Positions 1 to 64,000 of a DNA stretch of 64,000 nt are shown here, in pieces. The DNA is from Nitrospirota bacterium (GTDB taxonomy: Bacteria; Nitrospirota; JACRHL01). The stretch is from positions 62,001 to 126,000 of the forward strand of contig JAOUFN010000003.1 of the NCBI GenBank assembly GCA_029858285.1, given 5' to 3'. Position 1 is the first letter of the stretch; each line of letters starts with the position of its first letter. The position numbers were made by a program, and so were the translations under genes. The notes under the pieces are model-generated. The model was not told the DNA's origin. It saw nothing but the letters and a program-made list of their open reading frames with translations, and ran no database searches.

Positions 1-967
1 GCACCGGAATCGTCTCCAGCCAGCGGTCCCCCAGCAACAACGGCACCAACGGGTCGGCCCACACCGCCAGCCCCACCCCCACTGGCGCAACCGCCACCGA
101 GAGAACCCGCACGCACTGCTGATAGCTGATGCGCAATGCCTCTGGATTGTGCTGGCGCCGGGAAAAGGCCGGAAACAGCACCCGCCCCAACGCCTGCGAG
201 AGCGCCGATACCGGCATCATCGACAGGGAAAAACCCATGCGGTAGAAACCCAGTTGCCGTGCTCCCAAAAACCGGCCGGCGAGGGCCTGGTCCGAGTAAC
301 TGATAACCCACCCCAAAAGTCCCTCCAGGGTCACCCATCCGCCAAACCTCAGCAGATGGGCCCAGTTCGCTCCCCGCTTGGGCGCGCCGGGCCTCCAGCC
401 GACGTGGGCCCATAGCCCGGCGATGCGCAATACGTCCGCCGTCACCACACCCGCAACCAGCGACCACACGCCGTGCCCGGTCCACGCCAGGCAGATCGAC
501 ACGACACCCGAGGCCAAAGAGGGAAATATCTGCACCGAAAACAGGCGCCGGAAAGCCATGGAACGGACCAGTAGCGCCTCCGGCACCACTGCCAGGGAGC
601 GCAACACAAACAGCCCGGCCAGCACCCGCAACAGACTGGTCAGGCGCGGATCGCCGTAGAGTGAGGCCCATAACGGTGCCACCATCAGCACCACCACACA
701 CCACATCACCCCCAAGGCCATGCTGCCCCAAAACACAGCTCCCGTCAGGGCGTCATCCAGTTCCGGACGCTGCACCAGCGCAGGCTTGAAACCGGCATCC
801 TGAAACAGTCCCAGGAATGCGACCAGCACCATGGCGACTGCCAGCAAGCCAAAATCTTCGGGGGTGAGGATACGCGCCAACGCGATGGTGAACAAAAACT
901 GGCCACCACGCGCAAGCAGGTCTCCCGCCAGCGTCCATCGCAACCCGGTTGCCACAGACCCGTTCAC
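1..967 (-). CDS. Oligosaccharide flippase / lipopolysaccharide biosynthesis (Wzx/MATE-like) protein, truncated at window edge
   Basis: Open minus-strand frame running off the left edge: VNGSVATGLRWTLAGDLLARGGQFLFTIALARILTPEDFGLLAVAMVLVAFLGLFQDAGFKPALVQRPELDD..., typical N-terminus of polysaccharide flippases; not in ORF track because it has no stop inside the window. GTG start inferred. Confidence 0.75.
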   Translation of the reverse strand, partial: MNGSVATGLRWTLAGDLLARGGQFLFTIALARILTPEDFGLLAVAMVLVAFLGLFQDAGFKPALVQRPELDDALTGAVFWGSMALGVMWCVVVLMVAPLWASLYGDPRLTSLLRVLAGLFVLRSLAVVPEALLVRSMAFRRLFSVQIFPSLASGVVSICLAWTGHGVWSLVAGVVTADVLRIAGLWAHVGWRPGAPKRGANWAHLLRFGGWVTLEGLLGWVISYSDQALAGRFLGARQLGFYRMGFSLSMMPVSALSQALGRVLFPAFSRRQHNPEALRISYQQCVRVLSVAVAPVGVGLAVWADPLVPLLLGDRWLETIPV

Positions 968-1090
968 GAACCACCCTGGAGAGCGGCCACGCCCCTCCCC
1001 GAATGAATGCGATGCAATGGCTGAAAACAGGTGGCAAACACTCGCCGAGTATAGCGCACCACGCGGCACGACCAACGCCCGAAGGCGGCG

Positions 1091-1140
1091 GAAAACAACT
1101 GTGGCCCGAAGGGGGATTCAATTTCCCCTCCGGGCCACAG
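1091..1140 (-). terminator. Rho-independent terminator of the TSP3-repeat gene
   Basis: CTGTGGCCCG...CGGGCCACAG 10-bp perfect stem, extended inward by AGGGG/CCCCT, followed on the minus strand by GTTGTTTTCC, just past the stop at 1170. Confidence 0.75.
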
Positions 1141-1169
1141 TCTCTCATCATCCCGCGCGGGCGGACGGG

Positions 1170-6185
<5,016 letters not shown>

Positions 6186-6313
6186 ACCCCGTTTCCTCTT
6201 TGTGTTCCGTGGACCCTGTTCGGATCCGACTTCCGCAAGTCCTTAAGTCAGGAAGCGGCCACCGCGTGTGACCCACACGCCCCCTGCCGCACTCCCCACT
6301 CCATCGCTATTAC

Positions 6314-6616
6314 TCAACCGTTGGGATTGGGATTTTTTTTCGGATTCACAATCCCGGCGTCCACGCCACCCGGGGGCAGGTGCTCAATAACCGGGTGATA
6401 GACGGTGCCAGTGCCCCCCGTCGTACCGCAGTCCTGGTAGCGGCTGTCACAGCCGCCACCACCGTTGCCTCCGCCGCCCCCATTGCCGCCGCCCATATCG
6501 CCCAGGGATGCCCCGCCACCACCGCCGCTGCAAGCGGCGAGGAACGTCAACCCTGCCAGAAGGCACAACACACCGCTCAAGCGGACGATTTCCTGAACCA
6601 GACTGCTACGGCGCAT
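6314..6616 (-). CDS. Small glycine-rich lipoprotein
   Basis: MRRSSLVQEIVRLSGVLCLLAGLTFLAACSGGGGG...: lipobox LAAC, Gly-rich stretch, upstream of and codirectional with the TSP3 gene. Internal Met chosen over ORF-track start. Confidence 0.7.
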   Translation of the reverse strand: MRRSSLVQEIVRLSGVLCLLAGLTFLAACSGGGGGASLGDMGGGNGGGGGNGGGGCDSRYQDCGTTGGTGTVYHPVIEHLPPGGVDAGIVNPKKNPNPNG

Positions 6617-7422
6617 CGAAAATCCCTTTTTCTTCGGCTCCTGAAAACCGCAGGAACCGCCGCACCTGGCGGCAACCCAAGACACCACTCTTTCAGCACA
6701 CCACCAGCCCCCAAACCCTCGCGGAACTCAGACCGGTGACAAACCGGGGCGGGCTGGCACACCCCACCCACGCTCTGGTATTAAGAGACTGGCGAAGCCC
6801 AAGCTACTGCAAGAGCGGTGCCCCATGAATGGAAAAACTGTTCGGTGCTCGGCAAATGTCCTGAAGGTGTTCAGTTATTACCGGAATTTTTTCTGGGAAA
6901 AATGGCCGCAGACGGCATCGCCAATTTTCTGGCTATATCTGTACCGGGGGGGAAAGGGAACCCCGCGGATACTTTTGGGAAAAAATTTTCCCACACATCC
7001 CCACCCGGAAGACCAATTTCTTGCCCATGGGTTGTGAATTGGTACTGGTGCTTCACACTCCAGCAGGTCCCCCCCGGAGTTCCGCACCGAAAATTTGGCA
7101 TGGGCACGCAGACCGGCCCGCCGGGGGAGGCGGTATGCCCCACCCCCCCCCCGTCAAAAGCCAGGGACAAAGGGGGGGGGCGCAGCCCTTTGTGGACAGA
7201 AATACCCGCAGACGGTTGATGGGATGGGGGGAAACAAAAGGCCCCCCGGCCGACACACCTACCGGTGCGCGGCCAGAGGGCCGAAGGATCAGCGGGGGCA
7301 CAAAGGGACGCCGAACGGCGCACAATTGACTCCCCTTGGCGGTAGCATCACACCTGACCCGCACACCCCTTTCGGGATGAAGGCGAGCGGCGCCATGCCA
7401 CCCGGATCGGGAACGATCCTTT

Positions 7423-7614
7423 TTAGTTCGTGGCCGGAGCCGGAGCGGCGGCGTCGTGCATCGGGCTGGCCGCACCCTCAGGGGCGGTCATTGCCGGTGC
7501 GGGCGGGGGGGTCGGGGCGACCTCTTCCTTCTTGCTGCAGGCGGCCAATGCCAGCACCAAGCCAGCCGCGACGCCCATGCCAAGGACACCCAGAACCACG
7601 CGATTCTTGTACAT
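7423..7614 (-). CDS. Small lipoprotein, Ala/Pro-rich (63 aa)
   Basis: MYKNRVVLGVLGMGVAAGLVLALAACSKKEEVAPTPPP...: signal peptide with lipobox LAAC. Confidence 0.7.
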   Translation of the reverse strand: MYKNRVVLGVLGMGVAAGLVLALAACSKKEEVAPTPPPAPAMTAPEGAASPMHDAAAPAPATN

Positions 7615-7807
7615 TGACTTTCCTCTCCGATGCGATGATCGGTAAATAACTTTTCAGACTTCACCCGGCAGCCAACCATTGGCTTGGGGCGATCCCAGAC
7701 TTAAATCCTCGTAAAACCGGGGTATCGTGACGCTTTCTTTCTGGAGTTGTCAACGTGGAAAAAAGTTCCTCAATGGCAAAACGTCCGCCGGGAAGTGGCG
7801 AAAAACA

Positions 7808-38195: not shown

Positions 38196-39428
38196 CTAGA
38201 TGCCTTGGGAGAAGTGGAACGGATAGGTACCTTCCACCACGCCCTTGGGGACCGGCGGGAAGGTCCACTCCTTCACCCGGCTGACCAGTTCCCGGTCGAA
38301 GGCCGGGGCACCGGTGTCGGAACTTTCCACCCGTGCGTCGGTAACTCTCCCGTCGGGGGCAATCACCATGCGCACCACCACAGTGCCCTTCAGACCCGGG
38401 ATGCGGGTCAGTGATTTGTCGTAAAAATGCTTCAGTTCGCCGCGGTGGCTGCGGATTATGCGCATGATGTCTTCCACCTTGCGGATGCCGCTGCCCCCCA
38501 CTTCGCCTTCAATCTTGAACGGGCTTTCCACGATGGTGGTGGCGCGGGCCACCATCTTCTTCACGTCCACACGACCAGCGGAGACATCGTTGAGGAAGGC
38601 TTGCAACTCCTCGCGGCTGACGGCAGAGACATCGCGGTCGCCAAGGGCGATCTTGATCTGCTCCATGTCGCCGATGTCCCGCAGCAGCGCGTCGATGTCG
38701 GCCATGTCGTCGGCACCCCCTGGTTTGTTGCCCTTGCGGGTACCAGGGACGGTGGCTGACGGAGCTCCGGCGCGCCCCCCGGCGGGACCGCTCACCAGAG
38801 GTGCCTTGGGTTTGCTGGCCAGCACATCGGCAAACTCATCGTCCTCCTCGTCGCCCATGGCCCCGAGTACTCCGGCGGACATGGCGGCCTCGGCGTTGCG
38901 GCGGGCTTCTTCCTCCCGCTGGCGCTTCGCCTCCAGCGCCGCTTGGATGGCGGCCAGTTTGGCGGCCTCGGCAGCCTGTTTTCTGGCCTGCTCCTCGGAC
39001 TGCCGCTGGGCCATGGCCTCAGCCCTTTGGCGGGACTCGGCATCCATCGCCTGCCGTGCCTGTTCCTCGGCTGCGCGTCGCCGGGCTTCCTCCTCGGCCT
39101 GCCGCCTGGCTTCTTCCTCGGCCTGTCTACGGGCGGCATCGGCCTGCTTTCTGGCTTCTTCCTCGGCTTGCCGTCTGGCTTCTTCGGCCTGCTTTCTGGC
39201 CTCCTCCTCGGCCTGACGCCGGGTCTCTTCCATGGCCTGCTGGCGGGCCAGGTCTTCCGGGTTGATCAGCAGCCTGGCGACGTGGAACTGCTCCCCTGCC
39301 TCCCGGGGTTGCGGCGCCGCGTGCAGGAAGGTAAGCAATGCGGCCACCACTGCGTAGACCCCGAGGGTAACGGCCAGAAGCCGACGGAAACGGTCCGTCT
39401 CGTAGGGAGGATAAAAATCGTGGTTCAC
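38196..39428 (-). CDS. TonB/TolA-like protein with AgmX/PglI-type C-terminal domain
   Basis: One N-terminal TM, long (RRQAEEEARKQAEE)n coiled coil, C-term GGSGIRKVEDIMRIIRSHRGELKHFYDKSLTRIPGLKGTVVVRMVIAPDGRVTDARVESSDTGAPAFDRELVSRVKEWTFPPVPKG. GTG start. Confidence 0.88.
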   Translation of the reverse strand: MNHDFYPPYETDRFRRLLAVTLGVYAVVAALLTFLHAAPQPREAGEQFHVARLLINPEDLARQQAMEETRRQAEEEARKQAEEARRQAEEEARKQADAARRQAEEEARRQAEEEARRRAAEEQARQAMDAESRQRAEAMAQRQSEEQARKQAAEAAKLAAIQAALEAKRQREEEARRNAEAAMSAGVLGAMGDEEDDEFADVLASKPKAPLVSGPAGGRAGAPSATVPGTRKGNKPGGADDMADIDALLRDIGDMEQIKIALGDRDVSAVSREELQAFLNDVSAGRVDVKKMVARATTIVESPFKIEGEVGGSGIRKVEDIMRIIRSHRGELKHFYDKSLTRIPGLKGTVVVRMVIAPDGRVTDARVESSDTGAPAFDRELVSRVKEWTFPPVPKGVVEGTYPFHFSQGI

Positions 39429-39447: not shown

Positions 39448-39834
39448 TCAGCGGGAAAGGCGGTGCTCAAGGGCGCGGAGACGGCGCAGGGTCTGGCGGT
39501 CAAGCGGCTCCGCCAGTTCCTGGCGGAGCCACTGCATGTAATCGATGCCGGGGTCCATCTGGAAACCCTCCGGCTCGCGCCACGGCAAGCGCGTTTCACC
39601 ACTGGGGGTTTCGGCCATGCCGGTAATGTCGAGGGCGCCGCCGGAGATCACCTCGTGTTCCCCCGGTGCGTGACCCCTGCCACCCCCGGGCCTGTCCTGA
39701 GCCAGCGCCGCCGGGATCAAGGCGAGAAGGGACAGTGCCCCGGTCAGCAAGACCACGACCGACAGCCTGCCAGCCCGAACGGGCAAAACCAGGAGATACC
39801 GGAGAAATGGGGTGTGGAACGAATTACGGAACAT
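39448..39834 (-). CDS. Hypothetical secreted protein (128 aa)
   Basis: MFRNSFHTPFLRYLLVLPVRAGRLSVVVLLTGALSLLALIPAALAQDRPGGG..., start overlaps preceding stop. Confidence 0.7.
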   Translation of the reverse strand: MFRNSFHTPFLRYLLVLPVRAGRLSVVVLLTGALSLLALIPAALAQDRPGGGRGHAPGEHEVISGGALDITGMAETPSGETRLPWREPEGFQMDPGIDYMQWLRQELAEPLDRQTLRRLRALEHRLSR

Positions 39835-42800
39835 AGACCGGCTGCATCGGAATTTCGGGACGATCATACCACTCGGGACTGAGGCGCCCCAATGCCTGCA
39901 TGCTGGCGAGCACATCCTGGGTAAGCACCCCCTCCCTGGCCCGCTCCAGGTTGTCCTGGTGCGCCTGAATGGCGCGCTGGCGATAAGGTTTTGCCTTCTT
40001 TTCCACCGCACGGCGGTAGATTTCTACCTGCTCCGGGGTGAGGTTGTCCGGAACCGGGGCTCCCAGCAGGGCCACCGCAAACGCTTCGAACATTTCGCCG
40101 ATGTTGCGACTGGCGGCGGGAGTGACCGACAGGGCGCGCAGGTCACGGGCCTGTGAAAACAGATCTACTGACTCCTTGAGAGCGGTCTTCTTTGCCTCCA
40201 GCGACTGGTCCAGGGGCGGCACCAGGCGGATGCGATCCAGCCGGGCACGGGAGTCACGGGCGCGGGTCAGCAGAATTTCAGCGGCGATGCGGCGCCCCCC
40301 TCCCTCCAGGGAGTCCGACTCCGCCAGCGGCAGCAAGTCGGCCAGCAGGCGATCGGCGACACGATCGGCGTCCCTGGATCCGGATTTGGGTTCGGCACGT
40401 TTTCCGGTCTGCTGCAACCACACCAGTTGTTGGTGAACGGACATCCACGGATCGCTGCCCGCAGGATGACGGTCGCGCACCACGCTGAGGGCGGAGACCG
40501 CAAGGTCATTACGTTTGGCCCCCTCAAAAATTTCCACCGCACGCATTTGCAACCCGTCGGCCTCGGCGGGCACCGCCTGGGTTGCCAGAAGCTGGTAATG
40601 CATGCCCGCCTCCACCGGCTGCCCGGCGGCCAGCAGCAGTTCACCCAGATGGGCGTGAACGGCCTCGGCGGGTGGTTCGCCGGGGAAATCCGCCAGCAGC
40701 CGTTCGGCGGACTCCAAGGCACCAGCCGCATCACCGGCGGCCTCCAGCGCCGAGACCTGTGCCTCCAGAGCTTTGGACACCAGTCGTGACCCGGCCAGAT
40801 CATCGGCGATGGAGCCGAACAGGCGCGCAGCCTCGGCGGGTTTTTTGGCCTTCAGTCGCTCAGCCGCCCGCTTGTAGCGTATGCCGGACAGCATATCGAG
40901 AACCTCCTCTGGAGCCTGCCCCTTGGGCTGCGAGGCAATGGCGCGCACAAAAGCGGCGTCGGCCCCCTCCAGATCACCAGCGTCCATCAGCGCCCGCCCC
41001 TCCAGACGAGCCACGGCCAGATCGCGCTCCGGCCACTCCCCCTCGAACCACTGGCGATAGCGTTCCCAAGCGCGCCGCGCGGCCTCGAGATCGCCATTTT
41101 CCTGGGCGCGTTCGCCAACATTGAGCACGGAGCGCGCCACCCGGTCCCGGTGCGGCGTATTGGGCCAACTGGCCAGCAGGCTGCCGAACACCGCCAACGC
41201 CTGGCCGAATTCCTCGGCGCGCAGGAAGGACAAACCGGCATCCAGTCGCGCCGACTGGGCCAGGGGGTCGCTGGCTGGCAATGTGGCGGAAGCCTCCAGC
41301 AACTGTACCGCCAGAACGGCACCGTCGCCGCTTTCGGCCTCAGCGCGGGCAATGGTGGCGGCGGCCAGCAGTTTATGCACCTCGGCCTTCTGCCCCGGAT
41401 CGTCATCCAGATAGGTCAATGCCTGACGGAAGGCGGTGTCAGCCTGGTCCAGCTTCCGGATCTCCAGCGCCGCCTCACCCAGAGCCCGCCACGCCTTGGC
41501 GTGCAGTGTGCGGGAACGTGGCCCGAAACGCACCACGCGATCGCTGATGTCATACAGGCGCGCGTAATCGCCGGCCGAAAAGCACAGTGCGGCAATGCGT
41601 TCATAGGCGGTGGGCAGGCGTGGCTCACGGGGGAACTGTTCCACCAGTCGAAGGAAGGCGTCCGCCAGCAATTGCAGGTGGGGTGCAAACTGCAGGCCGT
41701 CCGGGTCCATCCCGGCCATACCCTGTTCCCGCGCATAGACCATTGCGTAGGCCGCCTCGGCCGAGCGTTGGTGGACCGGAAAATCGTAAGCCGACTGTTC
41801 GTAGGCCGAGGCGGCGCCCGCAAAGTCGCGGGTTTCGAACAACAGTTCACCGAGCAAAAAGGCCGCCTCGGGAGCATCCGCTCCGTACTGTCCGTTCTTG
41901 AAACGGGACAGGAAGGTGCGGTAGCTGTCCACCGCCCGGGCATAGTCTTCTTTTTTGTGGCTCTGCTGGGCCACCGAGTGGTAGTGCCGCGCCAGTCGGA
42001 ATGAGGTTTCCTCGAACACCGGCCCCAAACGGCGCCGGGTGGCCGCATCCTGCTTTCGCCACCACGCAGTCTGGGGGCCGTACTCCTCCACCAGCCGTAC
42101 GCGGGCGCGGATCGCGGATTCCAGATTCTGTCCCTCGGTGTACCGGTCTACGATGTAGCCGACAAACACGGGGGCGTCCGGACTATCGGGGTAACGTTTC
42201 AGGAAAGCCTCGTACACAGGAACTGCGGCTGCGGGGGATTCGTAGGTGATGGTCACCTCTGCCAGCTTGCCGTAGACCATGGGCAGGTAGTCGCGCTCCT
42301 CTGGAAAAGCCTTCAGCAGGGCCTTTACTCCGCCCTGGTCGTGGAGCATGCGCGCCAGAATGCCATTGACCTCGCGCACCCGCTCCCAATCCGGTTCCGG
42401 CATCGTCTGGCTGTCCAGCACCAAGGTCTTGCCGATGCGCACCCGCTTTTCATCCATGAACGCCACCGCTGCGGGCACCGCTACCGGGTAGTCCGGGGAC
42501 AGGAACAGTGCCCACACCCGTTTGTAGGCAGCGTAATCCCGCAGCACCGGCGGGGCATCGCGGTCGGCCAGAACTCCGGCATATTGCTCGGAGGCGCGCT
42601 GGAAACGACCGGTTTCGAAAGCCAGTTCACCCAACCGGTAGCGCACCTCGGTGGACTGGGGCCCCTTGGGAACCACTTTCAGGAACGCCTCCAGTGCGTC
42701 CCGTTCACCGGTTTCCTCGCCAATGTCGTCGAAGGCGCGTGCCAATTGGTAATAAACCCCGGCGTTGGCGGCGCGCCCCGGATAGTCGGTAAGCACCTTG

Positions 42801-43174
42801 CGGTACAGGGCGATGGAGCGGCGGTGGTCAGGTCGCAGGGAGGCGCTGTCCTCACCCCGGGCCGATATGCGCCGGAGGGCGCGCTCGTAGGTACGCACCT
42901 CGATGTCCATGTAAAGATCGGCAAGCTGGGTGGTGATGCGCGCCAGCCGCTCGCTACGGTTGGGCGTGGTGATGAGGAAATTCTCCAGTTCCGCCAGCGC
43001 CGCCAGTTTTTCCCGGGGATCGGCGATGGCCTGGCCGGACAGTACCGCACCCACGATGCGGTTTACCTCCGCCCGGTCCACCCCAGTGGGCGGGGCGCTG
43101 GCGCAGCCCCATGGCAGCACAACCGCCACCAGCATCCAGGCGAACCATTGCCAGACGACCTTCGGCCCACTCAT
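39824..43174 (-). CDS. Large TPR-repeat lipoprotein (about 1116 aa)
   Basis: MSGPKVVWQWFAWMLVAVVLPWGCASAPP (lipobox-like WGC) and many TPR helices. Confidence 0.87.
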   Translation of the reverse strand: MSGPKVVWQWFAWMLVAVVLPWGCASAPPTGVDRAEVNRIVGAVLSGQAIADPREKLAALAELENFLITTPNRSERLARITTQLADLYMDIEVRTYERALRRISARGEDSASLRPDHRRSIALYRKVLTDYPGRAANAGVYYQLARAFDDIGEETGERDALEAFLKVVPKGPQSTEVRYRLGELAFETGRFQRASEQYAGVLADRDAPPVLRDYAAYKRVWALFLSPDYPVAVPAAVAFMDEKRVRIGKTLVLDSQTMPEPDWERVREVNGILARMLHDQGGVKALLKAFPEERDYLPMVYGKLAEVTITYESPAAAVPVYEAFLKRYPDSPDAPVFVGYIVDRYTEGQNLESAIRARVRLVEEYGPQTAWWRKQDAATRRRLGPVFEETSFRLARHYHSVAQQSHKKEDYARAVDSYRTFLSRFKNGQYGADAPEAAFLLGELLFETRDFAGAASAYEQSAYDFPVHQRSAEAAYAMVYAREQGMAGMDPDGLQFAPHLQLLADAFLRLVEQFPREPRLPTAYERIAALCFSAGDYARLYDISDRVVRFGPRSRTLHAKAWRALGEAALEIRKLDQADTAFRQALTYLDDDPGQKAEVHKLLAAATIARAEAESGDGAVLAVQLLEASATLPASDPLAQSARLDAGLSFLRAEEFGQALAVFGSLLASWPNTPHRDRVARSVLNVGERAQENGDLEAARRAWERYRQWFEGEWPERDLAVARLEGRALMDAGDLEGADAAFVRAIASQPKGQAPEEVLDMLSGIRYKRAAERLKAKKPAEAARLFGSIADDLAGSRLVSKALEAQVSALEAAGDAAGALESAERLLADFPGEPPAEAVHAHLGELLLAAGQPVEAGMHYQLLATQAVPAEADGLQMRAVEIFEGAKRNDLAVSALSVVRDRHPAGSDPWMSVHQQLVWLQQTGKRAEPKSGSRDADRVADRLLADLLPLAESDSLEGGGRRIAAEILLTRARDSRARLDRIRLVPPLDQSLEAKKTALKESVDLFSQARDLRALSVTPAASRNIGEMFEAFAVALLGAPVPDNLTPEQVEIYRRAVEKKAKPYRQRAIQAHQDNLERAREGVLTQDVLASMQALGRLSPEWYDRPEIPMQPVYVP

Positions 43175-43284
43175 ATGCCGATCCCCATCGGAATCTGGCC
43201 CGAGCGGTACACCAGGTTGACCGCCAGCAGCACCAGCGCTGCGGCACGGATGAGCAGAATCAGCAGATGCCCTTGATCGGTCAT
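43171..43284 (-). CDS. 37-aa putative single-TM membrane microprotein
   Basis: MTDQGHLLILLIRAAALVLLAVNLVYRSGQIPMGIGI; ATGA overlap with both flanking genes; below size cutoff of ORF track. Confidence 0.7.
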   Translation of the reverse strand: MTDQGHLLILLIRAAALVLLAVNLVYRSGQIPMGIGI

Positions 43285-45062
43285 TTGCCGCGAGGCTCCT
43301 CAAACACCAGGTCCCGCGCCCCGGTCTGGTCCGACAGCACACTCTGGGTGATACCGACGGCGGCGGCGATGGACAGGTCGGACAAGCGCACCCGTTCCGC
43401 CTCCAGCAACGTGGTCACCTGTTCGCGGGCGCCTGCTTCCAGACCGCCACGTAGTGCCGTCACTTTGTCGCGCAAGGCTGCGCCGCGTCCGGCGTCGCCA
43501 CCGGCAGAACTTCCGATGGCCACCTGCTCCAGCCGTTCCAGGGTGAACGCCACCTGATGGTGGTCCGCCACCGCCGCCACCAGCGCCGGATGCCGCGCCA
43601 GCACCTGGATGGCGACCCCCTCAATGCCCACAGGCGGAATGTCGCCGGTACGCTGTGGGGCAAACAGGTGGCCGGTCAGCCCCTGGCCGAACGGGCCGCC
43701 GCGGACGGTGACGATCAGAGCCTCCAACTGTCGGGTGCGCTCGCGGAAGGCCGACAAGGCTTTGCGGTATTCAGCCACGGCTTGATAGGGGACATTCAGA
43801 CGCCGGTAGATTTCCGCCTTCATCAGGCGCCCCTCCGGCAGGTAGGCGCTCTCCGGCCGTTCCCGCTCCATGGCATTTATCTCAGCCACCGATTTCACCA
43901 GATCGCCGCCGCGCAAAAAGGCGACGGCGCGGCCAAAGCGCACCCGGTCTGCAATTTCTCCCGCACTGATGGCGTCGAAACGCTGCAATGCCTCGGCACT
44001 GCGCCCTTGCTCCGCAAACAGGCTGGCTGCGGCCAACAGAGCTCGTTCGCGCAGGGCGGAGATTTCCGGAGCCGTCCCTGTGGCCAGCCGCGCGGCGTCA
44101 TCGTACTCGCGGATGGCGGAAAATGGATCACCCACGGCCACGAACGCCTGGGCGCGGGCGGCCAGCACAAAGGCGTCGCCCCCGGCGGGCGGCAGGGCCG
44201 AGATCAGTGCGTGGGCCGCCTCGGTACGGCGCAGGGCGGCAATTTGCAGGGTGGCGGCCTCGGCAGCCAGTGACGTTCCGGCAGGGGGCTTGAGGGCCCC
44301 AAGAGTTTTGAGGGTGGCCGAGGGATTTTTTTCCAATTCCAGGTAAGCCTGCCCGATCCGCACCCGCAGTTTCACCCCGGCATCTGGATGCTCCGCCAGA
44401 GCGGCATAAATGTCCGCTGCCGGTGCGTCAATACCGGCCTCCCGGTATACGTCGGCGAGCAGAAGCTGATCGGGAATCGGCAGGGTGCCTGGTGCGACGG
44501 CCAGCACAGCCGCGGCTCCCAGTAAATCGCCACGGGCGCGGTCCCCCAAGGCAACGCGATGCACCATATCCGCGTCCGGGGTCTGGGGGGGGTGGACCAG
44601 AAGTGCCTTTTCAGTTGGCTCCACCAGCACCACGCTGCCCGCCGGAGGCAGGGTGATGGCGGCCGAAAGGGGTTTCTCCCCGCTCATTTCCCAGTTCAGG
44701 GTGACGCTGCCGCCGGGTCGGCCATCCAAAGCCAGAGCCACCCAGCCTCCCTCGGCAAAGGCCGCAGACAGGCGCCGGGCGATTTCCGCCTCGTCCACGC
44801 CGCTGATCCGCACGCGGTGCCCTTTGGCGCACGCTTCGGCGCTGCACCCGAGTACCACCACAGGTCGCCCGGGGATACCGGTAAGGCGGGCATCGGCGGA
44901 GCGACGCAACGGTTCTTCCAGACGCAAGAGCTGGCCCTTGATATCTGGCGCCGCCGGAACCGCCGGAGCTCCGGCCGCCACAGGCGGGACTGTAGCCAAC
45001 AGCAGGACCAACAGCACAGCAGTTGGTAACGGGTGGATTGGGCGGCGCAATAGAGGCATCAA
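43281..45062 (-). CDS. Secreted TPR-repeat protein (593 aa)
   Basis: Signal peptide MMPLLRRPIHPLPTAVLLVLLLATVPPVAAGAPA; TPR-like helical repeats. Confidence 0.82.
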   Translation of the reverse strand: MMPLLRRPIHPLPTAVLLVLLLATVPPVAAGAPAVPAAPDIKGQLLRLEEPLRRSADARLTGIPGRPVVVLGCSAEACAKGHRVRISGVDEAEIARRLSAAFAEGGWVALALDGRPGGSVTLNWEMSGEKPLSAAITLPPAGSVVLVEPTEKALLVHPPQTPDADMVHRVALGDRARGDLLGAAAVLAVAPGTLPIPDQLLLADVYREAGIDAPAADIYAALAEHPDAGVKLRVRIGQAYLELEKNPSATLKTLGALKPPAGTSLAAEAATLQIAALRRTEAAHALISALPPAGGDAFVLAARAQAFVAVGDPFSAIREYDDAARLATGTAPEISALRERALLAAASLFAEQGRSAEALQRFDAISAGEIADRVRFGRAVAFLRGGDLVKSVAEINAMERERPESAYLPEGRLMKAEIYRRLNVPYQAVAEYRKALSAFRERTRQLEALIVTVRGGPFGQGLTGHLFAPQRTGDIPPVGIEGVAIQVLARHPALVAAVADHHQVAFTLERLEQVAIGSSAGGDAGRGAALRDKVTALRGGLEAGAREQVTTLLEAERVRLSDLSIAAAVGITQSVLSDQTGARDLVFEEPRGK

Positions 45063-47157: not shown

Positions 47158-47994
47158 CTACCCGGGTAACGCAAGGAACTCCGCCACCGCCTCCTGCCAC
47201 GGTCGCATGTGGATGCCAAGGACGGCCAGACCGAAATTGTTCAGTGCCGAAAAGGCGGGGCGCGGGGCGGGGCGCGGAAACTCGGCGCTGGTCACCGGTG
47301 CCACCGGTGTTTTGAGGCCCCGCAAGCGCAGAATTTCGCAGGCAAATTCGTACCAACTGCACTCCCCCTCGTTGGTCGCGTGGTAGGTACCATAGGAACC
47401 GGTGTCGATCAATTGGGCGATGGCCCCGGAAAGGTCAACGGTCCAGGTGGGGTTACCGATTTGGTCATCCACCACGGTCAACCGCTCCCGCTCTACCGCC
47501 AGCCGCTGGATGGTGGCGACAAAGTTTCGGCCACTGGCGCCGTACAGCCAGGCTGTGCGCACAATGTAGTGGCGTGGGTTGTGAGCGCGAATCGCTTCCT
47601 CTCCGGCCAGCTTGGAATGGCCGTACTCGGTGGCCGGGCCGGTGGGGTCGAACTCCAGGTAGGGCACGGAGCCTTTTCCGTCGAACACATAGTCGGTGGA
47701 CACGTGCAGCACGGCGGCCCCGGCGCGTTCTGCCGCTACGGCCACATGGCGCGCCCCCAGGGCGTTGACACGAAAGGCCAGATCGCGCTCGCCTTCGCAG
47801 CCGTCCACATCGGTGAAGGCGGCGCAATTGATGACCAGATCGGGCTGGTTGGCATCCACGGCGCGGCACACCTGTCCGAAATCGCCAATGTCTAAGTCGG
47901 ATTTGGCGAAGGGAATTAGGGTGTGCCGCCCCTCCAGTGTGGCATGCAGATCACGCCCCAGCATCCCCGCCGCGCCGGTAAGCAGGATTTTCAT
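47158..47994 (-). CDS. rfbD: dTDP-4-dehydrorhamnose reductase
   Basis: MKILLTGAAGMLGRDLHATLEG...INCAAFTDVDGCE...VSTDYVFDG...YGHSKLAGE. Confidence 0.96.
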   Translation of the reverse strand: MKILLTGAAGMLGRDLHATLEGRHTLIPFAKSDLDIGDFGQVCRAVDANQPDLVINCAAFTDVDGCEGERDLAFRVNALGARHVAVAAERAGAAVLHVSTDYVFDGKGSVPYLEFDPTGPATEYGHSKLAGEEAIRAHNPRHYIVRTAWLYGASGRNFVATIQRLAVERERLTVVDDQIGNPTWTVDLSGAIAQLIDTGSYGTYHATNEGECSWYEFACEILRLRGLKTPVAPVTSAEFPRPAPRPAFSALNNFGLAVLGIHMRPWQEAVAEFLALPG

Positions 47995-48011
47995 GTCAGC
48001 AGCAGTGCATG

Positions 48012-49064
48012 TTACAGGGCCTTTTTGGCGGCTTTGACCCACTCTGGGTGGGACAGATACCAATCGACGGTCTCGGCGAGACCGGTTTGAAAAATATAGC
48101 GCGGCTTCCACCCCATCTCCCGCCCCATGCGGCCGGCATTGATGGCATAGCGGCGGTCGTGGCCAGGGCGGTCGGTGACAAAGCTCATCAACTGGCGCGA
48201 ACCGCTGCGACCAGTGCGGGTGTCGATCAGGTCGCAGATCAGTCCAACGATGTCGAGATTGGCCCACTCGTTGTGGCCGCCGATGTTGTACACCTCGCCG
48301 ATTTCCCCCTTTTGTAGCACCCGGTGCGCTGCCTCCACATGGTCAGCCACGTGCAGCCAGTCGCGCACGTTGCGGCCGTCGCCATAGATGGGGATAGCCT
48401 CCCCCGCAAGTACCCTGTCGATCACCACGGGTATGAGTTTTTCGGGCAACTGGTAGGGGCCGTAGTTGTTGGAGCAGCGGGTGATGACACAGGACAGGTC
48501 GAAGGTGTGGACGTAGGAGCGCACCAGCAGGTCCGACGCTGCCTTGCTGGCGGAATAGGGGCTGTTGGGAGCAAGGGGGGATTCCTCGGTGAAAAAACCC
48601 TCCGGCCCCAGACTGCCGTATACCTCGTCCGTGGAGATGTGCAGAAAGCGCACGTCGCGGCGCGCACCCCAGGCGGCCCGCGCCCCCTCCAGAAGCGCCA
48701 GCGTGCCACTGACGTTGGTGGAGACAAACGCCTCCGGCCCGGAGATGCTGCGGTCCACATGGGATTCGGCAGCAAAATGGGCCACCCGAGTGACGGGACC
48801 GAAATGACGGGAGCGCATCTCCGGATGTTCACCGGAGAAAATGGTGTGCACCAATTTTTGGTCGCGAATATCGCCGTGGACGAACAGGTGGCGCACCGGA
48901 TCCGGCAGGCCTTCGATGTTTTCACGCCGTCCGGCGTAGGTGAGCAGATCCAGGTTTACCACCCGCACCTTTGGTTCCACCGTCAGCACATGGCGCACGA
49001 AGTTGGAGCCGATGAACCCGGCACCACCGGTGACCAGCAATGTGCCATCGGTCTCCGCCATCAC
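48012..49064 (-). CDS. rfbB: dTDP-glucose 4,6-dehydratase
   Basis: LLVTGGAGFIGSNFVRHVLTVEPKVRVVNLDLLTYAGRRENI...FLHISTDEVYGSLG...YSASKAASD. Confidence 0.97.
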   Translation of the reverse strand: MMAETDGTLLVTGGAGFIGSNFVRHVLTVEPKVRVVNLDLLTYAGRRENIEGLPDPVRHLFVHGDIRDQKLVHTIFSGEHPEMRSRHFGPVTRVAHFAAESHVDRSISGPEAFVSTNVSGTLALLEGARAAWGARRDVRFLHISTDEVYGSLGPEGFFTEESPLAPNSPYSASKAASDLLVRSYVHTFDLSCVITRCSNNYGPYQLPEKLIPVVIDRVLAGEAIPIYGDGRNVRDWLHVADHVEAAHRVLQKGEIGEVYNIGGHNEWANLDIVGLICDLIDTRTGRSGSRQLMSFVTDRPGHDRRYAINAGRMGREMGWKPRYIFQTGLAETVDWYLSHPEWVKAAKKAL

Positions 49065-49648
49065 CCCTCCTCACCCCTTCCACCGGATTCTGTGGCCCAC
49101 TCGAACAGATCGCTGGGGGGCACTTCCCGTAGCAGGGGGGCCCTTTTGTCCTTGTCGGACAGGATTGGATTACTCACCGGCCAGGTGATTCCCAGGTCGG
49201 GGTCGTCCCAACGTAGCCCGCGCTCTCCCTTCGGGTAGTAGCCGTTCGTGCATTTGTAGATCACTTCGGCATGCTCGCTGGTGACGGAAAAGCCGTGAGC
49301 GAAACCCGCCGGAACCCACATTTGCAGATGATTCTCGGCGCTGAGGGGGGCGCCAAACCAGCGTCCGAAGGTGGGAGAGCCGCGCCGCAAATCCACGGCC
49401 ACGTCAAAAATTTCCCCCGCCACCACCCGCACCAGTTTTCCCTGGGGACGCTCAATCTGGTAGTGAAGGCCGCGCACTGCGCCACGCTGGGACGACGAGT
49501 GGTTGTCCTGCACGAACACGGCATCAATGCCTGCGTCGGCGAAGCGCTCCTGATGGTAGGTCTCCATGAAGAAACCCCGGGCATCGCGAAACACGGCGGG
49601 CTCCACCAGAATCACGCCGGATAGTGCCGTGGAATGAAACTTCACCAA
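49061..49648 (-). CDS. rfbC: dTDP-4-dehydrorhamnose 3,5-epimerase
   Basis: [53 protein letters not shown]. Confidence 0.97.
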
Positions 49649-50535
49649 GCCTCCGGATTTTCTTCGGTAAGCATCGCCGTGAGGTAGGCCCCGTAGGCGT
49701 TTTTGCTCAACCCCTTGGCGAGCCGCGCCACGTCATCCGCTGTGATGTAGCCCATCCGGTAGGCAATTTCCTCCAGACACGCCACCTTGAGGCCCTGCCG
49801 CGCCTCGATGGTTTCAATATAGTTGGACGCCTGCAAAAGAGATTCGTGGGTGCCGGTATCGAGCCAGGCGATTCCCCGCCCCAGCACCTCCACATTAAGA
49901 CTTCCCTGGCGCAGGTAAATGTTGTTGACGTCGGTGATTTCCAACTCTCCCCGCGCCGACGGCTTGAGTTTGCGGGCGATATCCACCACCGGATTGTCGT
50001 AGAAATAAAGGCCCGGCACCGCGTAGTGTGACTTGGGAGATTTGGGCTTTTCCTCCAACGTGGTCACCTTCCCGGCAGAGTCGAAGGTGACCACGCCGTA
50101 GCGTTCCGGGTCGCTCACCCGGTAGGCGAAGATGGTCCCCCCTTCCCTGCGGGCGGCGGCGTTTTTGAGGGTGTCCACCAGATGGTGGCCGTAGAAAATG
50201 TTGTCGCCGAGGATCAGGGCCACGCGGTCGTCGCCGATGAAATCGGCCCCCAGCACGAAGGCCTGGGCAATGCCGCCGGGGGTGGGCTGCGCGGCGTAGA
50301 CGATGGAAATACCCAGATGCGAACCGTCCCCCAGCAGCCGCTGGAATGCGGGCTGATCCTCCGGCGTGGTAATGACCAGAAACTCTCTGAGCCCGGTGAG
50401 CATGAGAGTGGACAGTGGGTAGTAGACCATAGGCTTGTCGTACACCGGCATGAGCTGCTTGGAGACCGCCCGGGTGAGGGGATACAACCGGGTACCCGAG
50501 CCGCCCGCCAGAATGATGCCCTTGGGGCTGGTCAC
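49642..50535 (-). CDS. rfbA: Glucose-1-phosphate thymidylyltransferase
   Basis: [44 protein letters not shown]...[11 protein letters not shown] start. Confidence 0.97.
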
Positions 50536-50728
50536 ATGATTTCTCCCGAAAGGGGTCGTGGCACTGCCGGGCGGGGCCGGGCGGTGAAGGGCCGCCGCGA
50601 TGATACCCAAAAAGGGGGGCGAGGGACAAAGGGCGAAGCTTGCCCGCAGACTCTGCTCCTTGACCTTCCCCACCTACCAAGGGGCAATGTATCGCCTACC
50701 GCCGTAATTTTCAGTGATTCGCCCCCCC

Positions 50729-57773: not shown

Positions 57774-58163
57774 ATAACCTCATATCACTTGATCATCCAC
57801 CGGGTGATCCCGTAGGTTCCCCCCTGTCGCCGATCCCCGGTGACACAACAGCAGATGGGGAAGCATGTGCCGGATTTCCGAAAACCCCCGCCCGCTCGCT
57901 CCTCCCCCTCCTGGGGACGTAGCGGCCTGGTGTGGTGTTTCGGCGCGCCGGTACCTGCCGTTGCCGGTTGCATACCCGGTTGAACCACCGGCGGACCACG
58001 AGGTTCAAGACCTGCGTGGATCGGAAGACCCGTGGTTGACGGGTATGCCACGCCCCCTCACGGTGTGACGGCCACTTATCTGGCCTTCCACTTCTCCGTC
58101 CCGACGCCTGATTCCACCATTTTGGCGGAGCGGGCTTTTTTCAACCCTCAAGGAGAGGTGCGA

Positions 58164-61100
58164 ATGCACGAATTCCATTTCAAGGCTCCTCCATCCCCCG
58201 AGGCTCCGTCGGCACCGCCGACGGGCCCGACGGGCTGGCGGCGGTGGCGCACGGGCGGAGCGGCCCGGGCGGTTGCCGCATTTACAGCCCTGCTGTTTAC
58301 CGTGCCATCCGGCATGGTAGCCGCTCAAACCACACCAGCACCTGCCGCCACCTGCACCGCAGGCACCGTTACCGCCCGCGTCGCAGTACTGGATCAGGTG
58401 CTCATCCACAACCGATTGGGTGCCCAAAACGTCAACGGCACCATCTATGCCCTGCGGGGTGATCTGGTCAATCTGAACACCCTTCAGCCCGAATCCCAGG
58501 GGGGCAGCCTGATCCCCGGTGAAGTCCAGCTTCGTCCGGACAAGCGGCCGCGTCCGCTGGTACTGCGCGTCAGCAAGGGACAGTGTCTGCAGGTGGAATT
58601 CACAAACCTGCTGGCACCGCTGCCAAACCCGAATCCGCATCCGGGACGTCACGTTCCAGCCCCCAACACCAGTCCGTTGCTGATTGCCGACAATCAGGTC
58701 AACGAGCGTCATGTGGGTTTCAACCCCACCGGGCTGGAACTGGTGAACGGTATCGCCGACAGCAGTTCGTTCGTGGGAAAGAACCTCAACAGTCTGGTGG
58801 CCCCGGGTGAAACCCGCACCTACACCTTCTTCGCCCGCGAGGAGGGTGGATTCCTGATCCACAATAACGGCGCCACCTTTGGCGGTGATTCGTCTACCGC
58901 GAACTCCGCCAACGGATTGTTCGGCGTGGTCAACGTGGAGCCGCCTGGCGCCACGTATTTCCGCAGTCAGGTGACTCAGGAGGAAATCGACCTGGCCACC
59001 ACCGGCCACACCAGCGATGGTCACCCGATCATCAACTATCAGGCCGTCTACCCGAATACCTCCCCGTGGATCGAGGAGGGCAAGGCCGGGCTGCCGGTAC
59101 TGAGCATGCTGAACGGCACCGAACTGGTGCACTCCGACATTAACGCGATCATTGTCGGACCGGGACCGGGTGGCCGCTTTGCGGCCAGCACCTACGCCCT
59201 GGAATCCCAAGGCAAGGTCAACCCGACGGTACCCAACCGACTGGAGCCGTTCCGCGAATTCACCGTGGTGTTCCACGATGAAGCGGTGGCCTCCCAGGCA
59301 TTCCCTCTGTGGTACAACGATCCCGTCCTCAAGCACACCCTGCATGGGGTACGCGACGCGTTTATGATCAACTACGGCTCGGGCGGCATCGGCACCGAGA
59401 TCATCGCCAACCGACTCGGGGTGGGCCCCATGTACGACTGTCTTGACTGTGCGTACGAGGAGTTCTTCCTGAGCGCTTACACGGTGGGTGATCCGGCCAT
59501 GGTGGTGGACATCCCGGCCAATTTCGGCCTGGAAAACTGCGCGCCGGATGGTACCGGCTGTCAGGCCGTGGGTCCCAAGGCGACCTACGCCCTGTACCCG
59601 GACGATCCGTCCAACGTTCACCACAGCTACCTGAACGATCCGGTGCGCTTCCGCAACCTGCATTCAGGCAAGGAACAGCACGTGTTCCACCTGCATGCGC
59701 ACCAGTGGCTGGCGGACGCCAACGACGATAACAGCACCTACCTCGACTCCCAGGGCATCGGCCCCGGACAGGGGTATACCTACGAGATCGCCTTCGGCGG
59801 CAGCGGCAACCGCAACAAGGAGCCGGGCGACTCGATCTTCCATTGCCACTTCTACCCCCACTTTGCCCAGGGCATGTGGGAGATGTGGCGCACCCACGAC
59901 ACGCTGGAGGCGGGCACCCGCCTGAGCGTGAGCGGCAGTGGCTTCCACAGTACTCCGTGGGCACTGATGAACGGTACCCCGGCGGCTGGCTCCCGTGCCC
60001 TGCCGGACGGCGAAATTCTGGCCGGAACACCGGTCCCGGCCCTGGTACCGATCCCGGCCCGGCCGATGGCGCCGGTTCCCGGCCATGTGGAAGTGGTGCA
60101 GAAAGACGTCAACGGCGACGGCACTCCGGATTCCAGTCAGGCCAAGGTGGATCCGGCAGATCTGGCTGCGGGTAAAAACCCCGGCTATCCGTTCTACCTG
60201 GCCGGTATCGAGGTGACCGTGGGCCAGCGGACGACCACTCCGCCGCTGGACATGGATCTGGCCACCGGCGGTTGGGACGGCGGCCTGCCGCGTCATGCCC
60301 TGGAAGGCCTGCGCGCAGGTGGTACCGTGGCCCACGAAGCCCACACCCGCCTGGACATGACCAAGGACATGGGCACCGCCAAGCCGGTGTACTTCCCGGA
60401 AGACGGCACCCCGGCAGAGAAGGCCGCGATGGCGTTCCACGCGGAGCGCTGTCACGATACCTTCCTGCCCGATGGTACCGCCGCGCTGTGCACGCCCACG
60501 AATGAGGCCGGGTTTGCCTCCAACGGCAACCTTCCCGCGCCCGGTGCCCCGTACGCCGAGCCGTGCGTGGACGACAACCGCCATGCGCTGCGGCGCGGCA
60601 TTGCCGGCATGTTCTTCGGGCCAGACGGCACCCCATCGGTGGCTCTGACCTCGGAGTTCGGCATCGACAATCCGCGTATCTACAAGGGTGCGGATATCGA
60701 GTTGGACGCCACCTTCAACAAGCTCGGCTACCACTTCCCCCAGCAGCGCATCCTCACGCTGTGGGAGGACGTGATGCCGTCCCTGACCAAGCAGCGTCCG
60801 CCCGAGCCGTTCGTGATGCGCCTCAACACCACCGACTGCGCCACGTACCTGCACACCAACCTGGTGCCTGAGTACTACGAGATGGACGACTACCAGGTGC
60901 GCACGCCGACCGACATCATCGGCCAGCACATTCACCTGGTGAAGTTTGACGTGTCGGCCTCCGACGGTTCGGCCAACGGCTGGAACTACGAGGACGGCAC
61001 CCTGTCTCCGGAGTCGGTGCGGGCACGCATCCGCGCCATCAATGCCTACAACGCGACTGTTTCCCGGCCGGTGGCGACACTGGACGGGCGCACTACGCTG

Positions 61101-64000
61101 ACCCCCCTGCCGCACCCGTTCTTCGGGGCACTGGATGAGAGCCTGCCGGATGCGCACGGCAGCAAGGAGTGGGACGGCGCGCGTACCACCATCCAGCACT
61201 GGTTTGCCGATCCGGTGCTGAACGTCAACAAGCAGGACCGTGGCCTCGGCATCGTGTTCACCCACGACCACTACGGTCCCTCCACCCACCAGCAGGTGGG
61301 GCTGTACTCCACCCTGCTGGTGGAACCTGCGCACTCCAAGTGGGTGCACAGTGAAACCGGAGACCTGCTGTACAACACCGCCACCCGTCAGGATGGTGGT
61401 CCCACCAGCTGGCAGGCGGTGATCATTCCGCAGGATGCCGCCGGTAACCCGGTGGACGCGGACGGTGACGGCAAGCTCGACACCTTCCGTGAGTTCTACT
61501 TCGAGTTCAGCGACTTCCAGCACGCCTACCTGAAGGACGTGTATGTGGGCCGCGACGCCAACCGCCAGCGGGTGTGCGCCGAAGGCGTGACGGTCTGTGC
61601 CGACCCGAACACCTTCCGCTCCGCCATCAACCCACCGTTTCGCCAGCCGGCACCGTTCCCGGATGTGCTCACCGTCCCGGCTCACTGCCCGGGCGGCGTG
61701 CCGCGCCCGTGTCCGGAAGCCATCTCGGCGGATGACGTAGGCATGCTGGTGGTGAACTATCGCAACGAGCCGGTGGCTCTGCGCGTGTATGACCCCAACG
61801 CCAAGGGGCCGGACGGCAAGTCTGGCGCCCAGGCCGCGGGCAAGGCGGGTGACCTGGCGTTTGCACTGCAGAGCCGTACCGACCGTGCGCTTCCGCAGTT
61901 CAATACCGCGCTGGGTGACACCCCCTACCCGTCCCTGACCCGGGATGTGCTGCCGGGCGACCCCTTCCCGCCGATCATGCGTGTGGAAGAGGGCGACATG
62001 GTGCGCATCAAGATTCAGGCTGGCGCCCACGAGCACGAGCACAACGGCTCCCTGCAAGGCATGAAGTGGCTCCAGACCGGCGCCAATCTCGGCCTCGGCA
62101 GCCCCAATTCGGGCTGGCGTGCGTCCCAGAACTGGGGCATCTCGGAGCAAACCACCCTCAACGTCCCCATCGGACTGGCCAAGAACTCCCCGGCGGAAGA
62201 AGACGGCGCCTCCAACGATCCGGAGCGCACCGACTACTTCTACTCGGTGGACAACAGCCAGGATGGTTGGTGGAGCGGTATGTGGAGCCTGATCCGCACC
62301 TATCAGCACCGCCCGGCGGACCTCTACCCGGCGTCCCGGACGCTGGCCGAGACCCAGGCGGCGGCTACCCCGCTGCCCACGGGCATGACAGTGCGTGACA
62401 AGCGCCCGGTCACCGTGGACCTGAGCCGCGTTGACGCGATGACCCTGGTCACCGTGCTCACCGAGAAAAAGGTGGACGATATCTTTGCCGGATCGGCCGA
62501 GATCGACACCACCGGCATGGGTGCGTCCCGCATGGCCGACGAGGCCGTTCGCATCCTGACTTCGGGCCGTGCCGAAGAAAGCGCCGCCATCCGGCAGCGC
62601 CTCTCCGGCGACCCTCGCTTCCTCACCGCCCTCAATGCGGCCATGCCCCTGTCCCAGGGCAGCGGCAAGGCGCGCCTCAAGGACGCCGTGAAGGATGCAC
62701 TGCGCGACGTGGGTGCCCTCGAAGCCGTCACCGGCATTGAGGTACGCCACGTCCCGGCCCTGGACCTGACGGTGGACTCTTCTCTGAAGGGCGTGGACGT
62801 GCGCTCCCTGAAGTTCCACCAGCACACACTGAGCCAAGCCACGGTCAGCAACCTGTCTAACCAGATTCTGGCGGCACTGCGCGCCTCCGGTGATCCGGCC
62901 ATGCTGCAGCGTTACGGTAACGGTGTCTCGGTCAGCGCCGAGCAGACCACCAACGTCGCCATGCTGCGCCGGTCGGTGGCGGTGCTGTTCCGCACCGACC
63001 TGAACATGGCCACTGCGGTGTGGAAGTCCGCCGGTGACCAGCACTTCACGCGCGAGACGTTCCCGGCCTGTCCGGCGAATGCCCCGCTGCGGCAGTTCGA
63101 GGTCCACGCGGTGGAAGCCAACGACATCCTCTCTGCCGCCACGGCGACGGGGGTGACGCTGGTGCCGACCGATGCCTCGGCCACCATGCACATGGGTGCG
63201 TTGCCCAACGCCAAGGGCGGCACCCTGGTATACAACAGCCGCCCCACCCTGCTCACGCAGATGGGCGGCACCGAGACGCATCAGGGCCCGCTGCATGATC
63301 CGACCGCGATCATGTATGTGCTCAAGGACGACCTGGCGCTCATGAAGAGCGGCAAGCTCACCCGTCCGCAGCCGGCCGTGCTGCGCGCCGCAGCAGGCGA
63401 CTGCATCGCGGTGACGCTGCACAACGACCTGCCGGATGTCACCGTGGACCTGGCCAGCTACACCAACCTGATGCCGGTGGCGCTGCGCGATCAGAACGCC
63501 GTGGGAGGCACCACCTTCTTCGACAACAACCTGATCCGCCCGTCCTCCTATGTGGCGCTGCAGCCGCAACTGGTGCACTACGCCGCCCATGCGGGTGACG
63601 GCCTCAACGTCGGCCGCAACGCCGAAGAGACCGTGCCGCCCAAGGGCAAACAGACGTTCTACTGGTTCGCCGGTGACGTCGATCAGCAACTGGTGAATGC
63701 CAGCTATCAGCTGGTATACACCCCGGTGGAGTTCGGCGGCTCGAACCTGATGCCCGCCGACCGCATCAAGCAGGGTCAGAAGGGCCTCATCGGAGGTCTG
63801 ACCGTGCTTCCCCAGGGCGCAACCTGGAGCAACGACAGCGACGCCAGCGGCAACCCGCTGCGCGCCTCCGCCACCGTTACCCCGGCGGGTAACGCCCCGG
63901 CGTTCCGCGACTTCGTGACGATGACCCAGAAGGGCCTGGCCTTCCGCTATGCGGACGGCCAGGCCGCCAAGACCATCGCCGCCGAAGACAACGGCGCCCC
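58164..64000 (+). CDS. Giant multicopper oxidase (>1945 aa), possible Mn(II)-oxidase-type, truncated at window end
   Basis: Continuous + frame with no stop to the edge. Copper motifs QHVFHLHAHQW, FHCHFYPHFAQGMWEMW, GQHIHLVKF, FTHDHYGPSTHQQVGLYSTLLVEP; signal-peptide-like N-terminus; repeated cupredoxin-like strands. AAGGAGAG upstream of ATG. Confidence 0.88.
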   Translation, partial: MHEFHFKAPPSPEAPSAPPTGPTGWRRWRTGGAARAVAAFTALLFTVPSGMVAAQTTPAPAATCTAGTVTARVAVLDQVLIHNRLGAQNVNGTIYALRGDLVNLNTLQPESQGGSLIPGEVQLRPDKRPRPLVLRVSKGQCLQVEFTNLLAPLPNPNPHPGRHVPAPNTSPLLIADNQVNERHVGFNPTGLELVNGIADSSSFVGKNLNSLVAPGETRTYTFFAREEGGFLIHNNGATFGGDSSTANSANGLFGVVNVEPPGATYFRSQVTQEEIDLATTGHTSDGHPIINYQAVYPNTSPWIEEGKAGLPVLSMLNGTELVHSDINAIIVGPGPGGRFAASTYALESQGKVNPTVPNRLEPFREFTVVFHDEAVASQAFPLWYNDPVLKHTLHGVRDAFMINYGSGGIGTEIIANRLGVGPMYDCLDCAYEEFFLSAYTVGDPAMVVDIPANFGLENCAPDGTGCQAVGPKATYALYPDDPSNVHHSYLNDPVRFRNLHSGKEQHVFHLHAHQWLADANDDNSTYLDSQGIGPGQGYTYEIAFGGSGNRNKEPGDSIFHCHFYPHFAQGMWEMWRTHDTLEAGTRLSVSGSGFHSTPWALMNGTPAAGSRALPDGEILAGTPVPALVPIPARPMAPVPGHVEVVQKDVNGDGTPDSSQAKVDPADLAAGKNPGYPFYLAGIEVTVGQRTTTPPLDMDLATGGWDGGLPRHALEGLRAGGTVAHEAHTRLDMTKDMGTAKPVYFPEDGTPAEKAAMAFHAERCHDTFLPDGTAALCTPTNEAGFASNGNLPAPGAPYAEPCVDDNRHALRRGIAGMFFGPDGTPSVALTSEFGIDNPRIYKGADIELDATFNKLGYHFPQQRILTLWEDVMPSLTKQRPPEPFVMRLNTTDCATYLHTNLVPEYYEMDDYQVRTPTDIIGQHIHLVKFDVSASDGSANGWNYEDGTLSPESVRARIRAINAYNATVSRPVATLDGRTTLTPLPHPFFGALDESLPDAHGSKEWDGARTTIQHWFADPVLNVNKQDRGLGIVFTHDHYGPSTHQQVGLYSTLLVEPAHSKWVHSETGDLLYNTATRQDGGPTSWQAVIIPQDAAGNPVDADGDGKLDTFREFYFEFSDFQHAYLKDVYVGRDANRQRVCAEGVTVCADPNTFRSAINPPFRQPAPFPDVLTVPAHCPGGVPRPCPEAISADDVGMLVVNYRNEPVALRVYDPNAKGPDGKSGAQAAGKAGDLAFALQSRTDRALPQFNTALGDTPYPSLTRDVLPGDPFPPIMRVEEGDMVRIKIQAGAHEHEHNGSLQGMKWLQTGANLGLGSPNSGWRASQNWGISEQTTLNVPIGLAKNSPAEEDGASNDPERTDYFYSVDNSQDGWWSGMWSLIRTYQHRPADLYPASRTLAETQAAATPLPTGMTVRDKRPVTVDLSRVDAMTLVTVLTEKKVDDIFAGSAEIDTTGMGASRMADEAVRILTSGRAEESAAIRQRLSGDPRFLTALNAAMPLSQGSGKARLKDAVKDALRDVGALEAVTGIEVRHVPALDLTVDSSLKGVDVRSLKFHQHTLSQATVSNLSNQILAALRASGDPAMLQRYGNGVSVSAEQTTNVAMLRRSVAVLFRTDLNMATAVWKSAGDQHFTRETFPACPANAPLRQFEVHAVEANDILSAATATGVTLVPTDASATMHMGALPNAKGGTLVYNSRPTLLTQMGGTETHQGPLHDPTAIMYVLKDDLALMKSGKLTRPQPAVLRAAAGDCIAVTLHNDLPDVTVDLASYTNLMPVALRDQNAVGGTTFFDNNLIRPSSYVALQPQLVHYAAHAGDGLNVGRNAEETVPPKGKQTFYWFAGDVDQQLVNASYQLVYTPVEFGGSNLMPADRIKQGQKGLIGGLTVLPQGATWSNDSDASGNPLRASATVTPAGNAPAFRDFVTMTQKGLAFRYADGQAAKTIAAEDNGA

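Follow-up and report, generated by a model that had tools for sequence, protein, structure and literature searches.

Genes at the locus

The window, meaning the whole 64,000-nucleotide stretch of Nitrospirota DNA that was analysed, carries five genes in a row on its reverse strand, from position 45062 down to 38196. In the order of transcription, these encode a TPR protein (TPR1), a microprotein, a second TPR protein (TPR2), a small secreted protein and a TonB/TolA-like protein. The genes and the two junctions that flank the microprotein gene are as follows.

43281..45062, reverse strand: TPR1, first gene of the operon, a periplasmic TPR protein of 593 amino acids with a signal peptide; the start is TTG at 45062 or, equally, ATG at 45059
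43281..43284, reverse strand: ATGA overlap of the TPR1 stop and the microprotein start; ATGA or GTGA in each of the four genera compared
43171..43284, reverse strand: microprotein gene, 37 amino acids, one predicted membrane-spanning helix, invariant Arg13, HLLILLIRAAALVLLAVNLVYR
43171..43174, reverse strand: ATGA overlap of the microprotein stop and the TPR2 start; likewise ATGA or GTGA in each of the four
39824..43174, reverse strand: TPR2, a TPR lipoprotein of 1116 amino acids with the lipobox ...LPWGC at Cys24; the start is ATG at 43174, not GTG at 43342
39448..39834, reverse strand: small secreted protein of 128 amino acids with the motif ITGxxExPxGxTxxxW, overlapping the end of TPR2 by 11 nucleotides
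38196..39428, reverse strand: TonB/TolA-like protein with an N-terminal membrane helix, charged repeats and an AgmX/PglI (GltG-type) C-terminal domain; the GTG start at 39428 is a predicted one

The microprotein ORF extends from an ATG at 43284 to a TGA at 43171 on the reverse strand and encodes the product MTDQGHLLILLIRAAALVLLAVNLVYRSGQIPMGIGI. Its ATG is the sole possible start, because the nearest in-frame stop lies six codons upstream and no other start codon intervenes. One copy is present in the window's genome (2.56 Mb in 57 contigs). The TPR2 frame remains open upstream of its ATG and across the microprotein gene, from 43174 to 43342. An automatic caller that favours the longest ORF would therefore extend TPR2 over the microprotein gene, which could be overlooked in this way. 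A programmed -1 frameshift that would fuse the microprotein to TPR2 was considered and found no support: the runs of G near the end of the microprotein gene vary among genera, and a signal peptide and lipobox belonging to TPR2 itself come immediately after the TPR2 ATG. The lipobox cysteine, C24, is invariant in the family alignment.

The small secreted protein matches no Pfam or NCBIfam family. Its family members are 108 to 128 amino acids long and overlap TPR2 by 11 nucleotides in all four genera. Other families encode a protein of 113 amino acids in the same place, and a profile comparison of the two (hhalign probability 8%, E 0.004) is suggestive only, so that the 128-amino-acid protein is perhaps its counterpart. 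The TonB/TolA-like protein scores 80.3 bits against NF033768, the model for the AgmX/PglI C-terminal domain (cut-off 40), and its relatives score 73 to 82 bits.

Several other regions of the window were noted. Near the operon, a row of four reverse-strand genes (47158-50673) resembles, on inspection of the sequence, dTDP-rhamnose synthesis genes (rfbD, B, C, A). At 831-6185, a forward-strand ORF of 1736 amino acids and a reverse-strand ORF of 1671 amino acids overlap almost fully, and at most one of them is likely to be a gene. At 58005-63689 on the reverse strand, adjacent ORFs of 552 and 1341 amino acids have no Pfam match at 1e-5; these are possibly large surface proteins or wrong frames.

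Conservation of the microprotein

The window's genome was compared with three other genera of its family, each represented by one genome, and all four genomes are drafts. This family is the sole one sampled in its class within the phylum Nitrospirota. ORFs of 41, 38 and 38 amino acids lie between TPR1 and TPR2 in the three other genera, and NTGA overlaps are found at all eight junctions of the four genomes. The relatives' microproteins are 66, 58 and 46% identical to that of the window, while the corresponding values are 49, 41 and 36% for TPR1 and 61, 47 and 45% for TPR2. The microprotein is therefore no less conserved than the two proteins encoded beside it. An alignment of the four sequences reads (H/R)Lx(I/V)Lx(I/V)RAAxLVxxxxxLxYR, with the common core LxxLxxRAAxLVx(5)LxYR, and the invariant residues include R13, A14, A15, L17, V18, L24, Y26 and R27. 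A glycine near the C terminus, Gly34, is also invariant, and may reflect the ribosome binding site of TPR2 rather than the microprotein itself.

The pattern of substitution is that of a coding sequence. Values of dN/dS range from 0.19 to 0.48 over the six pairs in an ungapped core of 22 codons, and 65 of the 119 pairwise differences fall in the third codon position. When alignment columns were shuffled, none of 5503 stop-free shuffles reached the observed amino acid identity. Shifting the region by one base introduces stops in all four genomes, and shifting it by two introduces a stop in one. Purifying selection acts on the microprotein frame.

The initial annotation had described a 37-amino-acid ORF that exactly fills the gap between TPR1 and TPR2, with ATGA at both ends, and had argued that it was a real gene unless the interval proved to be closed in relatives or to lack synonymous bias. 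The coordinates agree, each of the four genera keeps the frame open and shows both overlaps, and synonymous bias is present (mean pS 0.50 versus mean pN 0.22). With this conservation and the purifying selection on the frame, it is virtually certain, short of direct detection of the product, that the gene is real. This G+C-rich window has many short frames (220 ORFs of 30 to 50 amino acids), but there is a negligible chance that this one arose by accident in a short spacer, since it is open and conserved across four genera whose neighbouring proteins share only 36 to 61% identity, and the shuffles never match the conservation observed.

A predicted membrane helix

Among the window's 220 ORFs of 30 to 50 amino acids, the microprotein ranks first in hydrophobicity. 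Its best 19-residue Kyte-Doolittle mean is 2.69, versus an average of 0.02 for these ORFs. Structure prediction for the four sequences gives a single helix at residues 3 to 30 (mean pLDDT 80). This predicted membrane helix carries an internal arginine, and its end is marked by a belt of aromatic and arginine residues (LxYR). A conserved face on one side of the helix would have favoured contact with a partner. However, the clustering of invariant positions among the four sequences is not significant (P 0.16-0.26), and a reading of the helix as a partner interface on this ground was dropped.

Distribution and origin

A profile built from the four microproteins retrieves just these four from 396 Nitrospirota genomes, each with an E value of 1e-19 or better, and no homologue beyond the family was found in those genomes or in Pfam, NCBIfam and PDB. 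Weak profile matches outside the family (E 0.017-0.05) were treated as background, as no TPR or TonB-like genes adjoin them, and weak hits in PDB to LptC, at its N-terminal helix, are not significant (E 0.8). The microprotein represents a new family within a known kind of small protein, and its location is unexpected.

The surrounding system is much more widespread, and a TPR2 profile detects it in 36 of the 396, spread over many families. A search of genome contigs for related loci recovered the three known relatives and no others with the TPR2 alignment, and gave no match with TPR1. No cistron lies between TPR1 and TPR2 at the 16 cleanly readable loci of other families. At 13 of these, the two genes overlap directly by four nucleotides (ATGA or GTGA); the other three overlap by eight nucleotides (two loci) or by one. 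The direct overlap is likely to be the ancestral state.

TPR1 of the window's family and TPR1 of another family, f8, are homologous up to their C-terminal ends (profile comparison, E 1.3e-11). Because TPR1 is homologous to its end and is directly coupled to TPR2 elsewhere, the microprotein appears to be a lineage-specific cistron that was added cleanly within the ancestral coupled junction, converting one overlap into two 4-nucleotide overlaps. It may have originated de novo or through the duplication of a region for a signal peptide. The locus offers a clean case of a new cistron entering a tightly coupled operon, in which an ATGA junction became two NTGA junctions flanking a protein of 37 to 41 amino acids.

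An Agl/Glt-like operon and its probable motor at a second locus

Judged by its gene content, the operon encodes an envelope machine related to gliding motors and resembles the Agl/Glt core of Myxococcus. In Proteobacteria, this core complex consists of the TPR proteins GltD and GltE, the TonB-like protein GltG and the motor AglRQS (Luciano et al. 2011, PMC3169522), and one additional gene has been reported for the core outside myxobacteria (PMC3169522). The window's operon likewise encodes a long and a short TPR protein; TPR repeats were found in them, and they are candidate counterparts of GltD and GltE. The TonB/TolA-like protein shares the AgmX/PglI-GltG C-terminal domain, and the family has a TolQ gene and two ExbD-type motor genes, as in AglR, AglQ and AglS. 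In contrast to the Agl/Glt core, the motor genes of the window's family are at a second locus, the operon has the extra microprotein cistron, and the TonB/TolA-like protein falls below the cut-off of the GltG equivalog model NF033760, which it matches only in the C-terminal domain (68.2 bits, cut-off 650; E 5e-19). The proteins of the relatives behave alike.

Adjacent TolQ, ExbD and ExbD genes are found in all four genomes of the family, on a contig other than that of the operon, and the cluster is headed by a TPR lipoprotein gene where inspected. The features at this second locus are as follows.

L077 (G000:C4), about 5600-7695, also L078, L079 and L080: cluster of genes for a TPR lipoprotein, TolQ, ExbD and ExbD, which probably encodes the motor that serves the window's operon
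L079:344-3738, reverse strand, and the same in L080: Wza-like and Wzz/Wzc-like genes

Other Nitrospirota have the core genes in a single cluster (for example, L040), whereas the window's family has them at two loci. In family f8 (L038 and L040), the contiguous order is TPR1, TPR2, the 113-amino-acid protein, TolQ, ExbD, ExbD and the TonB-like protein. In two of the four genomes (G001 and G002), the motor cluster has as its divergently oriented neighbours Wza-like polysaccharide export genes and Wzz/Wzc-like chain-length genes, suggesting that the motor has a role in handling surface polysaccharides. This fits with the reported link between Agl-type motors and surface polysaccharides (PMC3858216). 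The window's lineage thus departs twice from the usual plan of its phylum, by the split motor locus and by the microprotein; any connection between them would rest on a single lineage.

Possible roles of the microprotein

The arrangement and the predicted structure suggest that this genuine gene probably encodes a microprotein that crosses the inner membrane once, is produced along with the Agl/Glt-like machine and serves as an accessory subunit of it. The overlaps point to translational coupling of TPR1, the microprotein and TPR2. Ribosomes that finish TPR1 would restart at the ATGA to translate the microprotein, and a second restart at the microprotein's TGA would lead into TPR2, so that all three proteins would be made in fixed proportion. 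The helix would insert into the inner membrane, where the invariant arginine and the LxYR belt might touch a membrane helix of the machine, either in the TonB/GltG-like protein or in the TolQ/ExbD/ExbD motor. The microprotein could then stabilize or adapt the assembly of the machine, akin to the action of CydX on cytochrome bd. This is the reading best supported, and we lean slightly towards this mechanism of a single-pass accessory subunit. The microprotein is not a core part of the machine, because other families encode the machine without it. A more specific scenario, held only tentatively, is that the lineage-specific microprotein became a working subunit of the proton-driven Agl/Glt-like machine after scarless insertion into the 4-nucleotide junction, perhaps to compensate for the relocation of the motor.

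The main rival is that the microprotein helps in the assembly or export of TPR1 and TPR2, for example as a membrane tether near the secretion machinery, and is not a subunit of the machine. Both TPR proteins have signal sequences, and the microprotein gene sits exactly between theirs, joined to each by an overlap. However, other families make the same TPR pair without any microprotein, and we regard this role as unlikely.

It is improbable that the microprotein is a small membrane regulator or a toxin-like protein that rides in the operon without a structural tie to the machine. Many small single-helix proteins are regulators or membrane-active peptides, and the lack of a family match would suit such a protein. 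Yet its synteny is strict, and in each of the four genera its gene overlaps both neighbours. No second copy occurs in the 396 Nitrospirota genomes, and a partner gene of the toxin-antitoxin type is absent.

Alternately, the frame might be a mere relay of translation from TPR1 to TPR2, or a means of tuning their ratio, with the peptide as a by-product. A relay would fit the overlaps that the gene has at each end in all genera, and also a G-rich stretch resembling a ribosome binding site near its 3' end. However, a conserved hydrophobic helix with an arginine is not needed for this purpose, and a direct 4-nucleotide overlap suffices in other families. Because the amino acid sequence is constrained, with a core dN/dS well below 1, and other families relay without the microprotein, a pure relay is quite improbable.

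The analysis supports and extends the initial annotation. Its core claim, a real small gene for a membrane protein, stands, with one helix predicted and the highest hydrophobicity among the short ORFs of the window; added to it are the Agl/Glt-like nature of the operon, the restriction of the microprotein to one family and the direct coupling of the junction elsewhere.

Comparison with known small subunits

Literature searches found no small subunits of ExbB/TolQ systems. If the microprotein did become a working subunit of the machine in this lineage, it would be the first small-protein subunit for a motor of the Tol/Exb/Agl type, as far as the literature searched shows. It is a concrete candidate for a component by which the motor is tuned or attached, in a class-level lineage of Nitrospirota whose genomes, as far as found, are all drafts.

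Small single-helix proteins that bind to the membrane portion of larger assemblies are known, and KdpF is one of them. AcrZ, another, does so in the AcrAB-TolC pump (PMC7267776). Unlike these, the microprotein is found in the context of a TonB/TolA-like, force-transmitting system, and it is not homologous to them. None of the four microproteins matches a CydX or KdpF family model in Pfam or NCBIfam, and their neighbours are TPR and TonB-like genes, not cydAB or kdpABC.

A close parallel is CydX of cytochrome bd oxidase, a protein of 37 amino acids that is lineage-restricted and encoded in the operon of its oxidase (PMC4325964). The microprotein differs from CydX in having no Pfam or NCBIfam match and no neighbouring cydAB genes, and in sitting between two genes for exported proteins. 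It shares with CydX the same length, a single helix, an operon that also encodes a larger membrane machine and presence in some lineages only; the likeness is only an analogy in how the two proteins might work.
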